Origin: Pseudomonadota bacterium
GTDB lineage: Bacteria > Pseudomonadota > Gammaproteobacteria > Burkholderiales > Rhodocyclaceae
Length of the DNA: 64,000 nt
Assembly: GCA_018241725.1 (NCBI GenBank)
Contig: JAFEDI010000097.1
Location: 46,205-110,204, forward strand
Direction: 5' to 3'
The notes beneath the pieces were generated by a model, which ran no database searches, had not been told where the DNA came from, and saw only the letters and a program-made list of their open reading frames with translations. Shown here one piece after another: positions 1 through 4,597 of this stretch. Every line of letters begins with the position of its first letter. The stretch's first letter is position 1. The translations under genes and the position numbers were made by a program.

Positions 1-330
1 GGCAAGCAAGGCCTGGCCGCTATCGCTGAGTACGGCCAGATACTGGGGCAGGGTGGTTCCCAATGCGCCGGTTGGTGCGCTGTGAGGCGATGGCCAGGCT
101 TCCAGGCTGGCGTCGTCCTGCAGGGACAGGAGGGTTTCCAGCGCTTTCTCCGGTGATGCTTCCCCGCTCCACATGGTGGCCATCTCCAAGTTCAGCAGCG
201 GACTTTCAGCCTCCTGCAGGATGCTGCGCAGGACTCGCCGCCTGGGACAGCCGTCGTCGGCACGGGCAACGGCCTGCCAGGCACCGTAGGGCGTGACGGC
301 GAGATGGGAGCCGGGGACGATTTCAAGCAT
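1..330 (-). CDS. Hypothetical protein, 3' part outside window
   Basis: Only the first 110 codons are in the window; the frame stays open to the left edge. The ATG lies inside the last codons of the upstream GTPase gene (8-base overlap), which suggests translational coupling and fixes the start. The visible part is soluble-looking, without a signal peptide or membrane segment, and I recognise no family. It is the last visible gene of the roadblock/GTPase operon, so a role in the same signalling module is an inference from position only. Confidence 0.6.
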   Translation of the reverse strand, partial: MLEIVPGSHLAVTPYGAWQAVARADDGCPRRRVLRSILQEAESPLLNLEMATMWSGEASPEKALETLLSLQDDASLEAWPSPHSAPTGALGTTLPQYLAVLSDSGQALLA

Positions 331-883
331 CGCTCAGTCCAGGATTGAGAGTGAAGAGAAGTGCCTTCACCAGCATTGCCACGTCATCGCGGCTACGGGC
401 GTCGACGCGGAAGACGGCGGGTGTGGGGGTATGCCCGAGTTCGGCCAGACGAGCCCGGTACGCATCCAGACCTGGAGCCGGTGCGCGGTCCATATGGGTG
501 ACACCGATGGTGACGGCAGTGCCGGCGATGAAGTTCGAGAAGGCGCCCAGGTAGTTCTCCAGGTCGGTCAGAGGTTCAGGCTGGGCGTTGTTGATCAGCA
601 GGATCAGGCCAATCCCGCCGTTGCTGAGAATCTCCCACATGAAGCTGAAGCGTTCCTGGCCCGGAGTGCCGTAGAGCATGACCTTCTCTCCGCCGGGCAG
701 GTTGAGTACGCCGTAGTCCATGGCGACGGTGGTGGTTTTCTTCATGCCGGCGATCTCGTCGGTGGCCAGCGCTTCGGTGCTGACCGGCAGGATGTCGCTC
801 AAGGCATTGATGGCAGTGCTTTTGCCGGCACCCACTGTGCCGGAGAAGATGATCTTATTGTGACGGACGCGTTCAGACAGCAT
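323..883 (-). CDS. Small Ras-like GTPase (COG2229/MglA-like)
   Basis: A 186-residue single-domain GTP-binding protein. The P-loop GTVGAGKST is at residues 15-23, a threonine-rich switch I (KTTTVAMDYG) at about 49-58, GTPGQERF at 72-79 in the switch II position, and THMD at 129-132 as the base-recognition motif. The G3 motif lacks the usual DxxG aspartate, which is typical of the bacterial COG2229 group that pairs with roadblock/LC7 proteins. A roadblock gene is encoded five genes upstream in the same operon. The start overlaps the end of the preceding gene by 11 bases. The likely role is a nucleotide-dependent switch controlled by the roadblock partner; the output is unknown. Confidence 0.88.
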   Translation of the reverse strand: MLSERVRHNKIIFSGTVGAGKSTAINALSDILPVSTEALATDEIAGMKKTTTVAMDYGVLNLPGGEKVMLYGTPGQERFSFMWEILSNGGIGLILLINNAQPEPLTDLENYLGAFSNFIAGTAVTIGVTHMDRAPAPGLDAYRARLAELGHTPTPAVFRVDARSRDDVAMLVKALLFTLNPGLSDA

Positions 884-2006
884 TGAGAAGTTTCCTCAGA
901 ATGCGGGAAAGGATGGAGGGACGTTGGGGTGGAATGAGGGGCGCGACATCGTTGGCCGGTTGTGCAGGGGGCGAGATCGCCGCAAGGGGCTCGGGCTGGA
1001 ACAGTCCGGCAAAGTGAGCGGATGTATACGCCGAGAATACGTAGCGTTGCGGAATCTCGAGCCGTCTCGCGATCTCCACCGGGCTGGCCCACTCGCGGGT
1101 CCATAGCGCAACGATCCTCAGCGCATGCGGTGCGGCCCAGGTCCGCGTGAAGTTGGGCCAGGCACGCAGGCGAACGGGACGATAGGGATCGACCCCGGCC
1201 GGGAGGCGGCCGCGGGCCGCCCATGCTGCAATGTTCCACAGGAAGTCTTCGGCAGTGTGGAGCGTGTCCGTGCTGCCTGGACCGCTGAAGGTCAGGGCAT
1301 TGACAACGCGCGCTGTGGCATCCGGCAACTGGGCCATGGAGAAAGGACGCAATTGCGTGTCACGGAAGCTGGTTACGCAGACGGGCTGAGGCAAGGGGGG
1401 GACGCCGATCAGGCGGGGTAGGCCCGACACGACGTGGGGGCGGCCGGTCTTGATCGCTTCATCCAGGGCCTGGGCCAGATGCCCGATCAGGTATTGGGTG
1501 GGTTCGAAAAACAGCTTGGCGGGCAGAGGGGCGCCGGGCGAGGGCGGTATATCGTCGAGTGAGCCGCACAGATCCGGTTCCTCGTCACTGACCCATGGGC
1601 GGGGCTCGCTGCTCTCCTGGATCGCCATGTTGGTCAGGGCGACCGGCTGCAGAGGGCGTCCGAGGAGGGCGGCCCGGTTCAGTACGCCGGGCAGTGCATC
1701 CAGATTGAGAGGCTTGCTGACCGTGAGATGGTGCGGAAAGCGGGTTTGCAGGCTCTCGGGTCGGAACGCATAGCCGACAACACCGATCCCGGGGTGGCGG
1801 GCCAATTGGTTCAGGGCTTCGTCGACACCGGGGCGGTCATGATCCACGAGGACAACGTCGGCTTCATCAAGGGACTGTGCCAGGCGGATGCTCTGCTTCC
1901 AGTGCCGTTCGATGGAGAGTCCGATCAAGCGGTTATCCATGCTTCCGATGTGCAGCAGGAAGACGGCGGTCGGGGCCGGGGCGAGGACGGGTGAAGGGCG
2001 GCTCAT
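873..2006 (-). CDS. Unknown protein with receiver-like N-terminus and possible C-terminal winged helix
   Basis: This 377-residue protein matches no family I can name with confidence. Residues 12-115 have the pattern of a response-regulator receiver fold: VVLVDHDRPG around Asp55 resembles the phosphoacceptor strand and SKP at 97-99 resembles the conserved lysine-proline. The acidic pair normally found after strand 1 is absent, so it may be a pseudo-receiver. Residues 303-337 (SPVEIARRLEIPQRYVFSAY and following) look like a helix-turn-helix. That suggests an analogy to DUF742, the winged-helix partner in actinobacterial roadblock/GTPase conservons; this analogy is inference. No membrane segment is seen. 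It sits between the unknown gene at 2042 and the GTPase, overlapping the GTPase start. Confidence 0.75.
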   Translation of the reverse strand: MSRPSPVLAPAPTAVFLLHIGSMDNRLIGLSIERHWKQSIRLAQSLDEADVVLVDHDRPGVDEALNQLARHPGIGVVGYAFRPESLQTRFPHHLTVSKPLNLDALPGVLNRAALLGRPLQPVALTNMAIQESSEPRPWVSDEEPDLCGSLDDIPPSPGAPLPAKLFFEPTQYLIGHLAQALDEAIKTGRPHVVSGLPRLIGVPPLPQPVCVTSFRDTQLRPFSMAQLPDATARVVNALTFSGPGSTDTLHTAEDFLWNIAAWAARGRLPAGVDPYRPVRLRAWPNFTRTWAAPHALRIVALWTREWASPVEIARRLEIPQRYVFSAYTSAHFAGLFQPEPLAAISPPAQPANDVAPLIPPQRPSILSRILRKLLNAV

Positions 2007-2041
2007 GGTGTTGAGGCGGGGCAGGTATCCACAGAAAGGAC

Positions 2042-2533
2042 TCAGGGGGTACGGGACATGCTGGCAGGTGAGGCGTGGATCGGTGCAGACCGGAGGAAGG
2101 CACGGTTTCCTTCCACCGGTCTGGCGAGCACAACGCCGCGCAGGGCGAGCTGGGGATCGTGGCGATCAACGCCGCGGTGCAGGCGGGCGTGCAGATAGAT
2201 ATCCAGATTGTGCTGCTCCAGCGCCCCGTGATGCTGGCGGAGCATGCGAGTCCGCAGATCGAGTCCGCATGCTCCGAGGGCGATCCACAGGTCTACGACC
2301 GCTGCTGCGGTCTGGGCAGGATTGCCGAGTGCGTGCCAGACTGAGATCCGTTGCATGTGGGCATGGAGGTTTCCCGGGTGACGTCCGATCTCACCGGCCA
2401 GCAGCGTGGCGGTTGCCGGTGAGCGCCAGACCGCCGCGATGTCCAGCGTTCGGACCGGGAGGCCGAAATCCGCCGGTGGGGCAGGTTCCTGCAGCCGCTC
2501 AGGGGCGTCGGGGATCGTGATGAAGATGTTCAC
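2042..2533 (-). CDS. Hypothetical protein of the roadblock/GTPase operon
   Basis: A 163-residue protein with no signal peptide or membrane helix and no motif I recognise. It is rich in Leu, Ala, His and Arg. Its ATG overlaps the stop codon of the PhnD-like gene by four bases (ATGA), so it is almost certainly co-translated with it. It is followed 35 bases later by the receiver-like protein. A role as an adaptor in the module is only a guess from position. Confidence 0.7.
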   Translation of the reverse strand: MNIFITIPDAPERLQEPAPPADFGLPVRTLDIAAVWRSPATATLLAGEIGRHPGNLHAHMQRISVWHALGNPAQTAAAVVDLWIALGACGLDLRTRMLRQHHGALEQHNLDIYLHARLHRGVDRHDPQLALRGVVLARPVEGNRAFLRSAPIHASPASMSRTP

Positions 2534-3276
2534 TGGGTCAGAGTGGAAATGATGTCGATCATGAACTCCACGTCTTCCTGCTGGATGGGTTGCCAGCGGG
2601 TGGCGCCGAGTGCCGACAGCAGATCCTGCCCCTTTTCCGTTTCGTGCATGGACAGCAGGATGCGTACGAAATCGTCGGCCCGGGAATGTAGGTCGCGGCC
2701 GATCAGGAAGACATGATGGATGACCTGAATGTCACTGGTGACCAGGACCTTGAGCTCCCGCCGGACGATGGAGGACAGGCCCCGATAGGCGCCCACCGGC
2801 ATGAAGCCCACATCGACCTGGCCGCGCAGGACGTCCTTGGCGACCTGGATGTAAGTGCCGCGTTGTTGTTCGACGGTGTTGTCCGCATTCAGATTGGCGG
2901 GTTCGAGCAGGATCCGGCCGATTGTATTGACGCACGGATCATTGGCGCAGGCGATACGGGTTCCGGGTTGAAGATCGCCGATGGCCTGAGCAGGGTGGCC
3001 GAGTGCCGTGACGACAACCATTTCGTCGGGAGCGCCATCCGGCTGCGCGATGGCGCGAAAGCCCTTCTCCCTGACCAGAAGGGAGGCGTCGAAGGGGTTG
3101 GCATGAATCAGGTCCACCTGTCCCGCTGCGATCGCAGCCCGTTGCGCGTCGAAACCGTCGTGGAGTTCCAGGTGGATGGGGATCGACAGGGAACGCTGCA
3201 ACCAGGTGTTGAAGATGTACCAGTCGGAAATGCGCTCGGCTGGAAAGCTGGGGCTGACGGTGAAGTTGAAGCTCAT
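2530..3276 (-). CDS. PhnD-like phosphate/phosphonate-type substrate-binding protein, apparently cytoplasmic
   Basis: The protein has the layout of the PhnD/SsuA-like periplasmic-binding fold (type II). It begins with FNFTVSPSFP, has AGQVDLIHANPFDASLL in lobe 1 and RGQVDVGFMPVGAYRGL in lobe 2. I chose the ATG at 3276 because it overlaps the stop of the PAS gene as ATGA; a start 12 bases upstream is also open. Neither start gives a signal peptide, and there is no ABC permease or ATPase nearby. The domain therefore probably works as a cytoplasmic ligand sensor rather than a transporter subunit (inference). Its length of 248 residues equals a bare binding domain. Confidence 0.8.
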   Translation of the reverse strand: MSFNFTVSPSFPAERISDWYIFNTWLQRSLSIPIHLELHDGFDAQRAAIAAGQVDLIHANPFDASLLVREKGFRAIAQPDGAPDEMVVVTALGHPAQAIGDLQPGTRIACANDPCVNTIGRILLEPANLNADNTVEQQRGTYIQVAKDVLRGQVDVGFMPVGAYRGLSSIVRRELKVLVTSDIQVIHHVFLIGRDLHSRADDFVRILLSMHETEKGQDLLSALGATRWQPIQQEDVEFMIDIISTLTQ

Positions 3277-3752
3277 GACCGGATCCACTCCCTGTAAGTC
3301 GCTTCTGCCTGGGCCACTTTCTCACGGGAGGGTTCCCGCCGGACCGAGGTATACCCGACGATGCGTTCGTCCCGAACGTTGGGGACCACTGTGGCGAACA
3401 CCCAGTAGTGGCCCCCATCCTTGCGGAGGTTCTTCACGTAACCGTGCCATTGGCGCCCGGCCTGGACTGTTTCCCACAGATCGCGGAAGGCGGCGGCAGG
3501 CATGTCTGGATGACGCAGCAGGCAGTGGGGCTGGCCGATCAACTCGCTGCGCTCGTAACCCGACATGTCCACGAAGGACTGGTTGCATTGGGTGATGATG
3601 CCGCGTGTGTCGGTACGTGAAACGATCAGCCGGCCCTGCGGGTAAGGCGTTTCGACATGAGTCACGAAAACCCGGCGGCTGCTGCCGTCGGCATAGTCCA
3701 GGCGATGCTCGATGGCGCCGCCTGCGTTGGAGAGAGGAGGCATGTCGAGCAT
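3273..3752 (-). CDS. Aer-like single PAS-domain protein
   Basis: The ATG at 3752 gives a 159-residue protein and lies just after the roadblock stop; the longer open frame upstream overlaps that gene and is unlikely to be used. Residues about 42-140 form a PAS domain very like that of the aerotaxis receptor Aer: RHPDMP at 80-85, then GRQWHGYVKNLRKDGGHYWV at 99-118. In Aer this domain binds FAD and senses redox or oxygen. There is no HAMP, methyl-accepting, kinase or GGDEF domain, so the signal must be passed by protein contact, plausibly to the roadblock/GTPase pair. Flavin binding is inferred from similarity. Confidence 0.85.
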   Translation of the reverse strand: MLDMPPLSNAGGAIEHRLDYADGSSRRVFVTHVETPYPQGRLIVSRTDTRGIITQCNQSFVDMSGYERSELIGQPHCLLRHPDMPAAAFRDLWETVQAGRQWHGYVKNLRKDGGHYWVFATVVPNVRDERIVGYTSVRREPSREKVAQAEATYREWIRS

Positions 3753-3765
3753 CGTGAACTCCTTG

Positions 3766-4137
3766 TCAGCCGAGAATGCCGCCGATCGCGTCAGCCGCGC
3801 GGCGTACGTCGAGAAATACCAAGCCCAGCTTGGCCGTAGGCTTGGCCATGACGGTGAGTACTGCATCGGTGCCTGCCTGAACCATCAGCACGTAGCCCTT
3901 GGCGCCCTTGATCAGAACCTGTTCGAGGTTGCCGCGGGCCAGTTCCCGGGCGGTGCGGTCCCCCAGGGACAGCATGGCGGCGCTCATCGCGCCGACCCGG
4001 TCTTCGTCCACGGTATTGGGCAGCAGGGCCGCCATCATCAGCCCGTCGGAGGAAATGATGGCCGAGGCCTCTATATCCGCTGAGCTTCCGTTCAGGTCGT
4101 TGAGTACGGTTTGAAGCATGTCGGATCGCATTTGCAT
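3766..4137 (-). CDS. Roadblock/LC7 domain protein
   Basis: A roadblock/longin-fold protein of about 123 residues. It shows IEASAIISSDGLMMAALLPN, a central VLIKGAKGYVLMVQAG strand region and LGLVFLDVRRAADAI at the end, all typical of bacterial MglB-like or CvnB-like proteins that act on small GTPases. The start is uncertain: ATGs at 4137 and 4131 and a longer one at 4209 are all in frame, and none has a strong ribosome-binding site. It is the first gene of the seven-gene minus-strand operon ending beyond the left edge. Its expected partner is the GTPase at 323-883. Confidence 0.87.
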   Translation of the reverse strand: MQMRSDMLQTVLNDLNGSSADIEASAIISSDGLMMAALLPNTVDEDRVGAMSAAMLSLGDRTARELARGNLEQVLIKGAKGYVLMVQAGTDAVLTVMAKPTAKLGLVFLDVRRAADAIGGILG

Positions 4138-4363: not shown

Positions 4364-4597
4364 ATGATGGATTTCGACAAGGAAGTGGACGCCCGGGGGC
4401 TCAATTGCCCGTTGCCGATCCTGCGGGCCAAGAAGGGCTTGGCCGAACTGCAGGCCGGGCAGGTGATGCGCGTGCTGGCGACGGATCCGGGGTCGGTGAA
4501 GGACTTCGCGGCCTTTGCCCGTCAGACGGGCAATGATCTGATCGGGCAGCAGGAGTTGCCGGACGGCGCCTACGAGTTCTTCCTGCGGCGCAAGTAA
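4364..4597 (+). CDS. tusA: TusA/SirA-family sulfur carrier protein
   Basis: A 77-residue protein with the family signature DARGLNCPLPILRAKKGL; the conserved cysteine in CPLPIL at residue 15 would carry the persulfide. Length matches the family. TusA relays sulfur from cysteine desulfurase to tRNA thiolation and other sulfur-transfer pathways in the cytoplasm. It stands alone, divergent from the roadblock operon and convergent with valS. A shared bidirectional terminator separates it from valS. Other members of the family serve different sulfur routes, so the exact acceptor is not shown here. Confidence 0.9.
   Translation: MMDFDKEVDARGLNCPLPILRAKKGLAELQAGQVMRVLATDPGSVKDFAAFARQTGNDLIGQQELPDGAYEFFLRRK

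Follow-up and report, generated by a model that had tools for sequence, protein, structure and literature searches.

We examined the left edge of a 64,000-nt stretch of a Rhodocyclaceae genome (GenBank assembly GCA_018241725.1, contig JAFEDI010000097.1; the whole stretch is called the window, and coordinates follow its numbering), where seven tightly packed minus-strand genes, G1 to G7, form an operon that includes a small Ras-like GTPase. Judged by its sequence, the core of this operon is a Group 3 MglA system, an already known kind. What appears to be new is a conserved sensor pair, an Aer-type PAS protein (G2) and a PhnD-fold protein (G3), which is added to the core together with a TPR-family gene (G4). 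The original prediction for this DNA had proposed an undescribed switch; this does not hold for the core, which is a described Group 3 system, and appears to hold for the pair and the TPR-family gene. Supplements aside, we found no paper joining PAS, PhnD and roadblock/MglA genes in the open-licence literature searched. We see about an even chance that the operon encodes a GTPase switch of the Group 3 MglA kind that carries its own cytoplasmic redox or energy input; the output of this switch would most likely be type IV pilus activity.

The PAS and PhnD-fold proteins

G2 (3273 to 3752, minus strand like all seven genes) is a stand-alone PAS protein of 159 amino acids (aa) with a conserved N-terminal cap (Pfam PAS_3, 8.5e-16). 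It had been predicted to be Aer-like, and its profile does match the PAS domain of E. coli Aer (8dik) at 3.3e-44. Residues H76, R80, W93, N108 and R138 of G2 align with H53, R57, W70, N85 and R115 of Aer and are invariant in 26/26 aligned sequences. In Aer, these residues contact or face flavin adenine dinucleotide (FAD), and H53 and R115 are described as somewhat uncommon among flavin PAS domains and as shared with MmoS (PMC9668731). From this conserved site, G2 is very probably a flavin redox sensor.

The start of G3 (2530 to 3276) overlaps G2 by 4 bp. Its product, a substrate-binding-like protein of 248 aa, belongs to the PhnD family (PF12974, 2.8e-37), which agrees with the ligand-binding fold originally proposed. 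No signal peptide could be recognized by eye in the window copy or in the 24 printed N-termini of relatives, and no ABC transporter gene lies within the operon. G3 was aligned to PtxB; the ligand (phosphite) motif of PtxB and PhnD has been described as STS-H (PMC5700983). The STS loop (S[TS]S in the aligned loop) is absent in 79/79 PAS-linked copies and in the window copy, and among these 80 sequences the column of the motif histidine holds Y in 78 and F in two. Sensing of phosphonate or phosphite in the known manner is therefore unsupported. G3 is probably a cytosolic, repurposed binding-protein fold.

The PhnD-fold protein could itself be the main sensor, of a nutrient or a metabolite, with the PAS protein as a dimerising or structural partner. 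Consistent with this, a PhnD-family gene stands beside Group 3 roadblock genes in five loci in which no PAS gene was found (L150, L151, L153, L155 and L171; L-numbers are labels of the loci compared). However, the STS-H motif is gone, whereas the flavin site of the PAS protein is fully conserved in the 26 sequences aligned, and we regard this alternative as unlikely. Two PhnD genes each are present in L153, L026 and L027.

Linkage of the seven genes in relatives

Two sets of loci were compared, one anchored on the PAS gene and the other on the GTPase gene. The PAS-anchored set comprises the 80 best-scoring of 500 PAS relatives from named genomes; many of these are Zoogloea, to which the nearest named relatives mostly belong. 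A PhnD gene lies directly downstream of the PAS gene and on the same strand in 79 of the 80 loci, and in the remaining locus the contig ends 10 bp after the PAS gene. G1, PAS and PhnD are contiguous in 68/80. All seven families occur together in 44/80 loci from many genera, a recurrence that places their linkage far beyond chance. The two commonest gene orders, G4-G5-G6-G7-G1-G2-G3 in 23 loci and G1-G2-G3-G4-G5-G6-G7 in 16, are circular permutations of each other, and both retain the blocks G5-G6-G7 and G1-G2-G3. All-against-all clustering of the open reading frames (ORFs) in the 80 loci returned the same seven families as its seven largest clusters (44 to 77 loci each), while every other cluster was found in 14 loci or fewer. 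The linkage on which the original prediction depended is thus present in relatives.

The GTPase-anchored set holds 116 fetched loci, 63 with G7 and 53 without. Sixteen of these come from a family sample (17 matches minus the window's own) and 40 from the 45 matches of a further search, with those already included left out; the other 60 are stretches from the 95 matches listed in a class sample, mostly the strongest. With a PAS cut-off of 1e-40, by which chemoreceptor PAS matches were excluded, the PAS gene was present in 19/63 loci with G7 and 0/53 without, PhnD in 22/63 and 1/53, and G4 in 31/63 and 0/53, respectively; eight of the 19 PAS-bearing loci are the same DNA as PAS-anchored loci, and Fisher tests on such counts treat related loci as independent. 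PhnD accompanied the PAS gene in all 19 cases and occurred in 4/97 loci where PAS was missing.

Of the 369 class genomes sampled, 15 encode the stand-alone PAS at an E-value of 1.2e-79 or better, and the next best match is at 4.8e-53, a gap that sharply separates the stand-alone PAS from Aer-type receptors. A Group 3 GTPase gene lies within about 3 kb of the PAS gene in 13 of these 15. In a quickly built GTPase tree with 139 rows, in which some duplicated loci were entered twice, the PAS label requires 17 changes, at least four of them forced by supported branches, so PAS has been gained or lost repeatedly. In the four independent supported pairs that differ in PAS, PhnD follows PAS (three of four in a few pairings).

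The loci also show variants. In seven of them (L104, L112, L116, L122, L124, L134 and L135) G4 is divergent and a different protein family takes the place of G5; the copy from L104 (316 aa), which was scanned, had no clear Pfam match. L083 contains two tandem systems, one complete with all seven genes and, behind it, another of G1-G5-G6. GTPases of approximately 320 aa in L032 (7451-8422) and L033 (8198-9160) carry a C-terminal extension that, by eye, resembles a roadblock; Robl_LC7 matched that of L033 at 0.043 and that of L032 not at all, and these proteins may be MglA-MglB fusions. PilJ-family genes are found near the PAS-PhnD genes, with PilJ-type N-terminal domains by Pfam in L086 and L139 and further family members in L081, L084 and L088; they form tandem pairs in L084, L086 and L088 and lie on the opposite strand in L139.

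The operon and its Group 3 core

All seven minus-strand ORFs of the original prediction are present, and, as it had stated, most of them overlap (four of six junctions). The first gene begins at 4137. Gaps of 13 bp and 35 bp separate G1 from G2 and G4 from G5, and overlaps of 4 bp join G2/G3 and G3/G4, 11 bp G5/G6 and 8 bp G6/G7. G7 (1 to 330, cut by the window edge) continues 309 bases beyond the left edge, and reading the contig to the left of the window, as had been suggested, completed it at 212 aa (L002:11692-12330:-). It terminates the operon: the next ORF, M48-protease-like by eye, is convergent, and we therefore take the operon as exactly seven genes. A scan for promoters before G1 gave one promoter-like site against 0.9 expected, which is chance level.

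The Group 3 MglA proteins of beta- and gamma-proteobacteria were named in 2014 by Wuichet and Sogaard-Andersen, who described systems of a REC-like/winged-helix protein, MglA and one or two coupled MglB proteins, and no kinase; the GTPase is marked by GTPGQ, the lack of the G4 lysine and DAR, and the partner protein by a variable linker (PMC4316618). G6 (323 to 883, 186 aa) has the same marks. Its GTPase motifs, whose customary names G3 to G5 should not be confused with those of the genes, read GTVGAGKS (P-loop), GTPGQ (G3, within YGTPGQERF), THMD without lysine (G4) and DAR (G5, within VDARSRDD), and in the stretch KKTTTVAMDYG a Thr replaces the Arg finger of Group 1. G6 was the single match of the host genome in the GTPase search at 1e-15.

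G1 (3766 to 4137, 123 aa) is a roadblock/LC7 protein of the MglB type (Robl_LC7, 5.5e-16), so that the roadblock and Ras-like GTPase of the original prediction are both recovered. Its profile matches solved roadblock structures from archaea, CvnB and MglB, and the mean column identity is 80% in an alignment of 24 sequences, the window copy included. The prediction had recognized only this one roadblock and missed that the last gene encodes another. Robl_LC7 matches 20/24 relatives of G7 at E up to 1 (best 1.9e-5); in the same scan, the near-identical copy from L066 gave no match. In another scan, the copy from L021 scored 0.014 and that from L025 nothing to 0.1. An AlphaFold2 (AF2) model of the L066 copy has a predicted local distance difference test score (pLDDT) of 92, and the fold matches listed for it are of the roadblock type, MglB proteins among them (best 8e-4). 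By sequence and model, G7 is a second, divergent roadblock protein with an N-terminal helical domain. The single Pfam roadblock match in the host genome is G1, G7 being too divergent for that search. Since there is one GTPase and two roadblocks (G1 and G7), this is a 1:2 Group 3 system.

G5 (873 to 2006, 377 aa) had no Pfam match; it has a REC-like domain, a linker whose length varies among relatives, and a C-terminal helical, helix-turn-helix-like domain. D57, K98 and P99 are invariant in 20/20 aligned sequences. The AF2 model (pLDDT 83, predicted template modelling score 0.54) matches receiver folds in Foldseek (probability 1.00, E-values of 1.3e-3 and weaker) and contains a three-helix arrangement at 295-333. 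The receiver-like protein of the original prediction is thereby confirmed by model and fold search, and for its possible winged helix it is the placement of these helices in the model that speaks; that part had no separate fold match. Nearly all of the 50 matches listed are to receiver domains or to proteins containing such a domain, so the fold search lends the C-terminal domain no support of its own.

G4 (2042 to 2533, 163 aa) is assigned to a TPR family through its relatives. TPR_14 was found in 10 of 21 aligned members (E up to 1), and many longer relatives have a C-terminal TPR; the window copy has neither a TPR nor any Pfam match. A FimV/HubP-like identity was considered and dropped, as the match to the FimV C-terminal region was too weak (3/21, best 0.0013).

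It had also been suggested that a kinase has been replaced here by two sensors. This has no basis, because Group 3 as described has no kinase; the genes that define conservons are absent as well. Directly upstream of the operon, at 4364-4597, lies a divergent gene for a TusA sulfurtransferase.

Proposed mechanism and known systems

In the mechanism we propose, G2 would bind FAD as Aer does and report the redox state of the cytoplasm or of the respiratory chain. G3, as its partner, would either sense a small ligand or pass on the signal of the PAS protein by closing its domains. Through G1, either by itself or joined with G7 in a heterodimer, the two sensors may then influence the nucleotide state of G6, and GTP-loaded G6 would act via G5 and the TPR-family protein G4. 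Type IV pilus activity is the most likely output, which would amount to energy taxis on surfaces; transcription is a less likely one.

The linkage described above and the invariance of the positions that match Aer's FAD contacts speak for this mechanism. Other sensor genes occupy the same neighbourhood. In 11 loci, of which two belong to one genome, a protoglobin gene (approximately 190-220 aa) adjoins the roadblock gene and usually lies between G7 and G1. Nine of these loci carry Group 3 genes (L098, L109, L231, L118, L129, L136, L202, L212 and L216), and in L034 and L035 the adjoining roadblock is that of an MglA-like GTPase that is more distant. Pfam Protoglobin was found in the ten copies scanned (L231, the same DNA as L109, was not scanned), and all ten aligned copies share an invariant histidine, as expected of a haem ligand, a role that this residue may have. 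Methylacidiphilum has a known fusion of a globin with a roadblock domain (HGbRL, PMC4476040). Together, the protoglobin genes and this fusion support an input role for the neighbour of G1 and a redox/oxygen theme.

For the output, two precedents point to pili. The mgl operon of Snodgrassella is a Group 3 system with one mglA and two coupled mglB genes, and an allele of an orphan mglB in that organism alters motility dependent on type IV pili (PMC11112851). In M. xanthus, GTP-bound MglA binds the TPR protein SgmX and thereby promotes pili (PMC7519303). The distribution of PilT adds weak support: it was over the cut-off in 65/65 GTPase-positive genomes compared to 244/304 others, with no GTPase-positive genome among the 60 below it.

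Several observations weigh against this mechanism. No PAS gene is nearby in 44 of the 63 GTPase loci with G7 and in all 53 without, so that the PAS-PhnD pair must be regarded as accessory, and the tree offers just four independent supported pairs with a difference in PAS, a number too small for significance. Conversely, 9/80 PAS loci have no roadblock or GTPase gene of these families within 6.5 kb; several of the nine are short or lie close to the end of a contig, whereas L106 and L108 have long flanks, and PAS-PhnD can therefore occur where the switch is missing. At 1e-20, two of the 15 PAS genomes lack a Group 3 GTPase. Five loci (L102, L123, L126, L128 and L130) keep G4, G5, G7, G1, PAS and PhnD without an adjacent GTPase gene; a related GTPase is encoded elsewhere in four of these genomes, and that of L102 has none at 1e-8. 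With regard to pili, the Snodgrassella mutation affects an mglB outside the operon (PMC11112851). PilT was over the cut-off in 309/369 genomes (84%) as a whole, and the p value of 3.8e-6 for its association with the GTPase is uncorrected and ignores phylogeny and genome size.

PAS-PhnD might instead be an autonomous cytoplasmic two-protein sensor, with a target other than the GTPase, that merely shares an operon and its regulation. In L106 and L108 the two genes overlap by 4 bp and stand as a unit of their own, with no Group 3 genes beside them, and no roadblock gene of this family was found nearby; these loci are labelled Anaerolineales and Anaerolineae, respectively, and their placement in the Chloroflexi follows from the label and from neighbouring genes read by eye. 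However, the pair is so regularly placed, directly behind G1 in 68 of the 80 loci and together with a Group 3 GTPase gene in 13 of the 15 class genomes, that we consider such independence improbable.

A transcription switch, in which the GTPase controls G5, G5 binds DNA and regulates genes, and PAS-PhnD tunes the response, is in our view similarly doubtful. It was proposed for Group 3 in 2014 with a Phyre2 prediction (PMC4316618), and the receiver-like domain and three C-terminal helices of the G5 model agree with it. However, the putative recognition helix of G5 has a mean of 0.8 basic residues and a net charge of +0.6 (20 sequences), and in G7 the N-terminal helical part is acidic, with a net charge of -2.9 for residues 25-80 (24 sequences), both of which are poor for DNA binding; the silence of the fold search on the G5 C-terminal domain counts in the same direction. 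The MglA/MglB core is also that of a Group 1 MglAB polarity module or of a conservon of the actinobacterial type, but the reading that this operon is simply one of these in a new host is highly improbable, as G6 lacks both TVPGQ and the Arg next to the threonine of the G2 motif, and the seven genes include neither the kinase CvnA nor a gene for CvnC or its domain DUF742.

If the proposed redox-controlled GTPase switch is correct, its implications may reach beyond this operon. What feeds into prokaryotic Ras-like GTPases is largely open, and in the actinobacterial systems the sensory input components were called largely unexplored in a 2026 paper (PMC13343842); the sensor pair points to what toggles this switch. 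As a soluble pair with a recognisable flavin site, it also makes the input into the GTPase directly testable with purified proteins. We suggest tentatively, and with rather less confidence than in the mechanism itself, that the MglB-type roadblocks of beta- and gamma-proteobacteria are docking hubs for interchangeable redox or gas sensors (FAD-PAS with a repurposed PhnD, or a haem protoglobin), through which Ras-like GTPases would read the energy state of the cell without a kinase. PAS-PhnD would then be a two-protein sensor of wide distribution, for which the literature searched gave no description, and which also works alone outside the proteobacteria.

Compared to the Group 3 systems described so far, the operon has the same GTPase motifs in G6, the same REC-like partner with a variable linker (G5) and two MglB-type roadblocks, and it differs in its PAS, PhnD and TPR partners, of which the passages that describe these systems mention none ('pas' and 'phnd' have 0 occurrences in the main text, supplement aside; PMC4316618). 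Conservons likewise join a roadblock and an MglA-family GTPase in an operon, some of them with accessory sensor-type proteins, whereas their CvnA kinase and CvnC are absent here (PMC13343842). The Snodgrassella operon shares the 1:2 Group 3 content and is linked to pilus motility; the parts of the paper that describe it mention no sensor pair, and the phenotype is that of the orphan mglB allele (PMC11112851). HGbRL also joins a sensor to a roadblock, although by fusion and with a globin, instead of in an operon and with a PAS protein (PMC4476040). G3 belongs to the same PF12974 family as the periplasmic binding proteins PhnD and PtxB; in contrast to these, it appears to be cytosolic, lacks STS-H and does not adjoin transporter genes. 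Finally, G2 shares with E. coli Aer the PAS domain, the residues at the FAD-contact positions and the N-cap (8dik; PMC9668731), and it differs in consisting of the PAS domain only, with no HAMP or methyl-accepting output domain. If the proposed mechanism is true, sensing of the aerotaxis type would here be connected to a GTPase switch and not to chemotaxis kinases.

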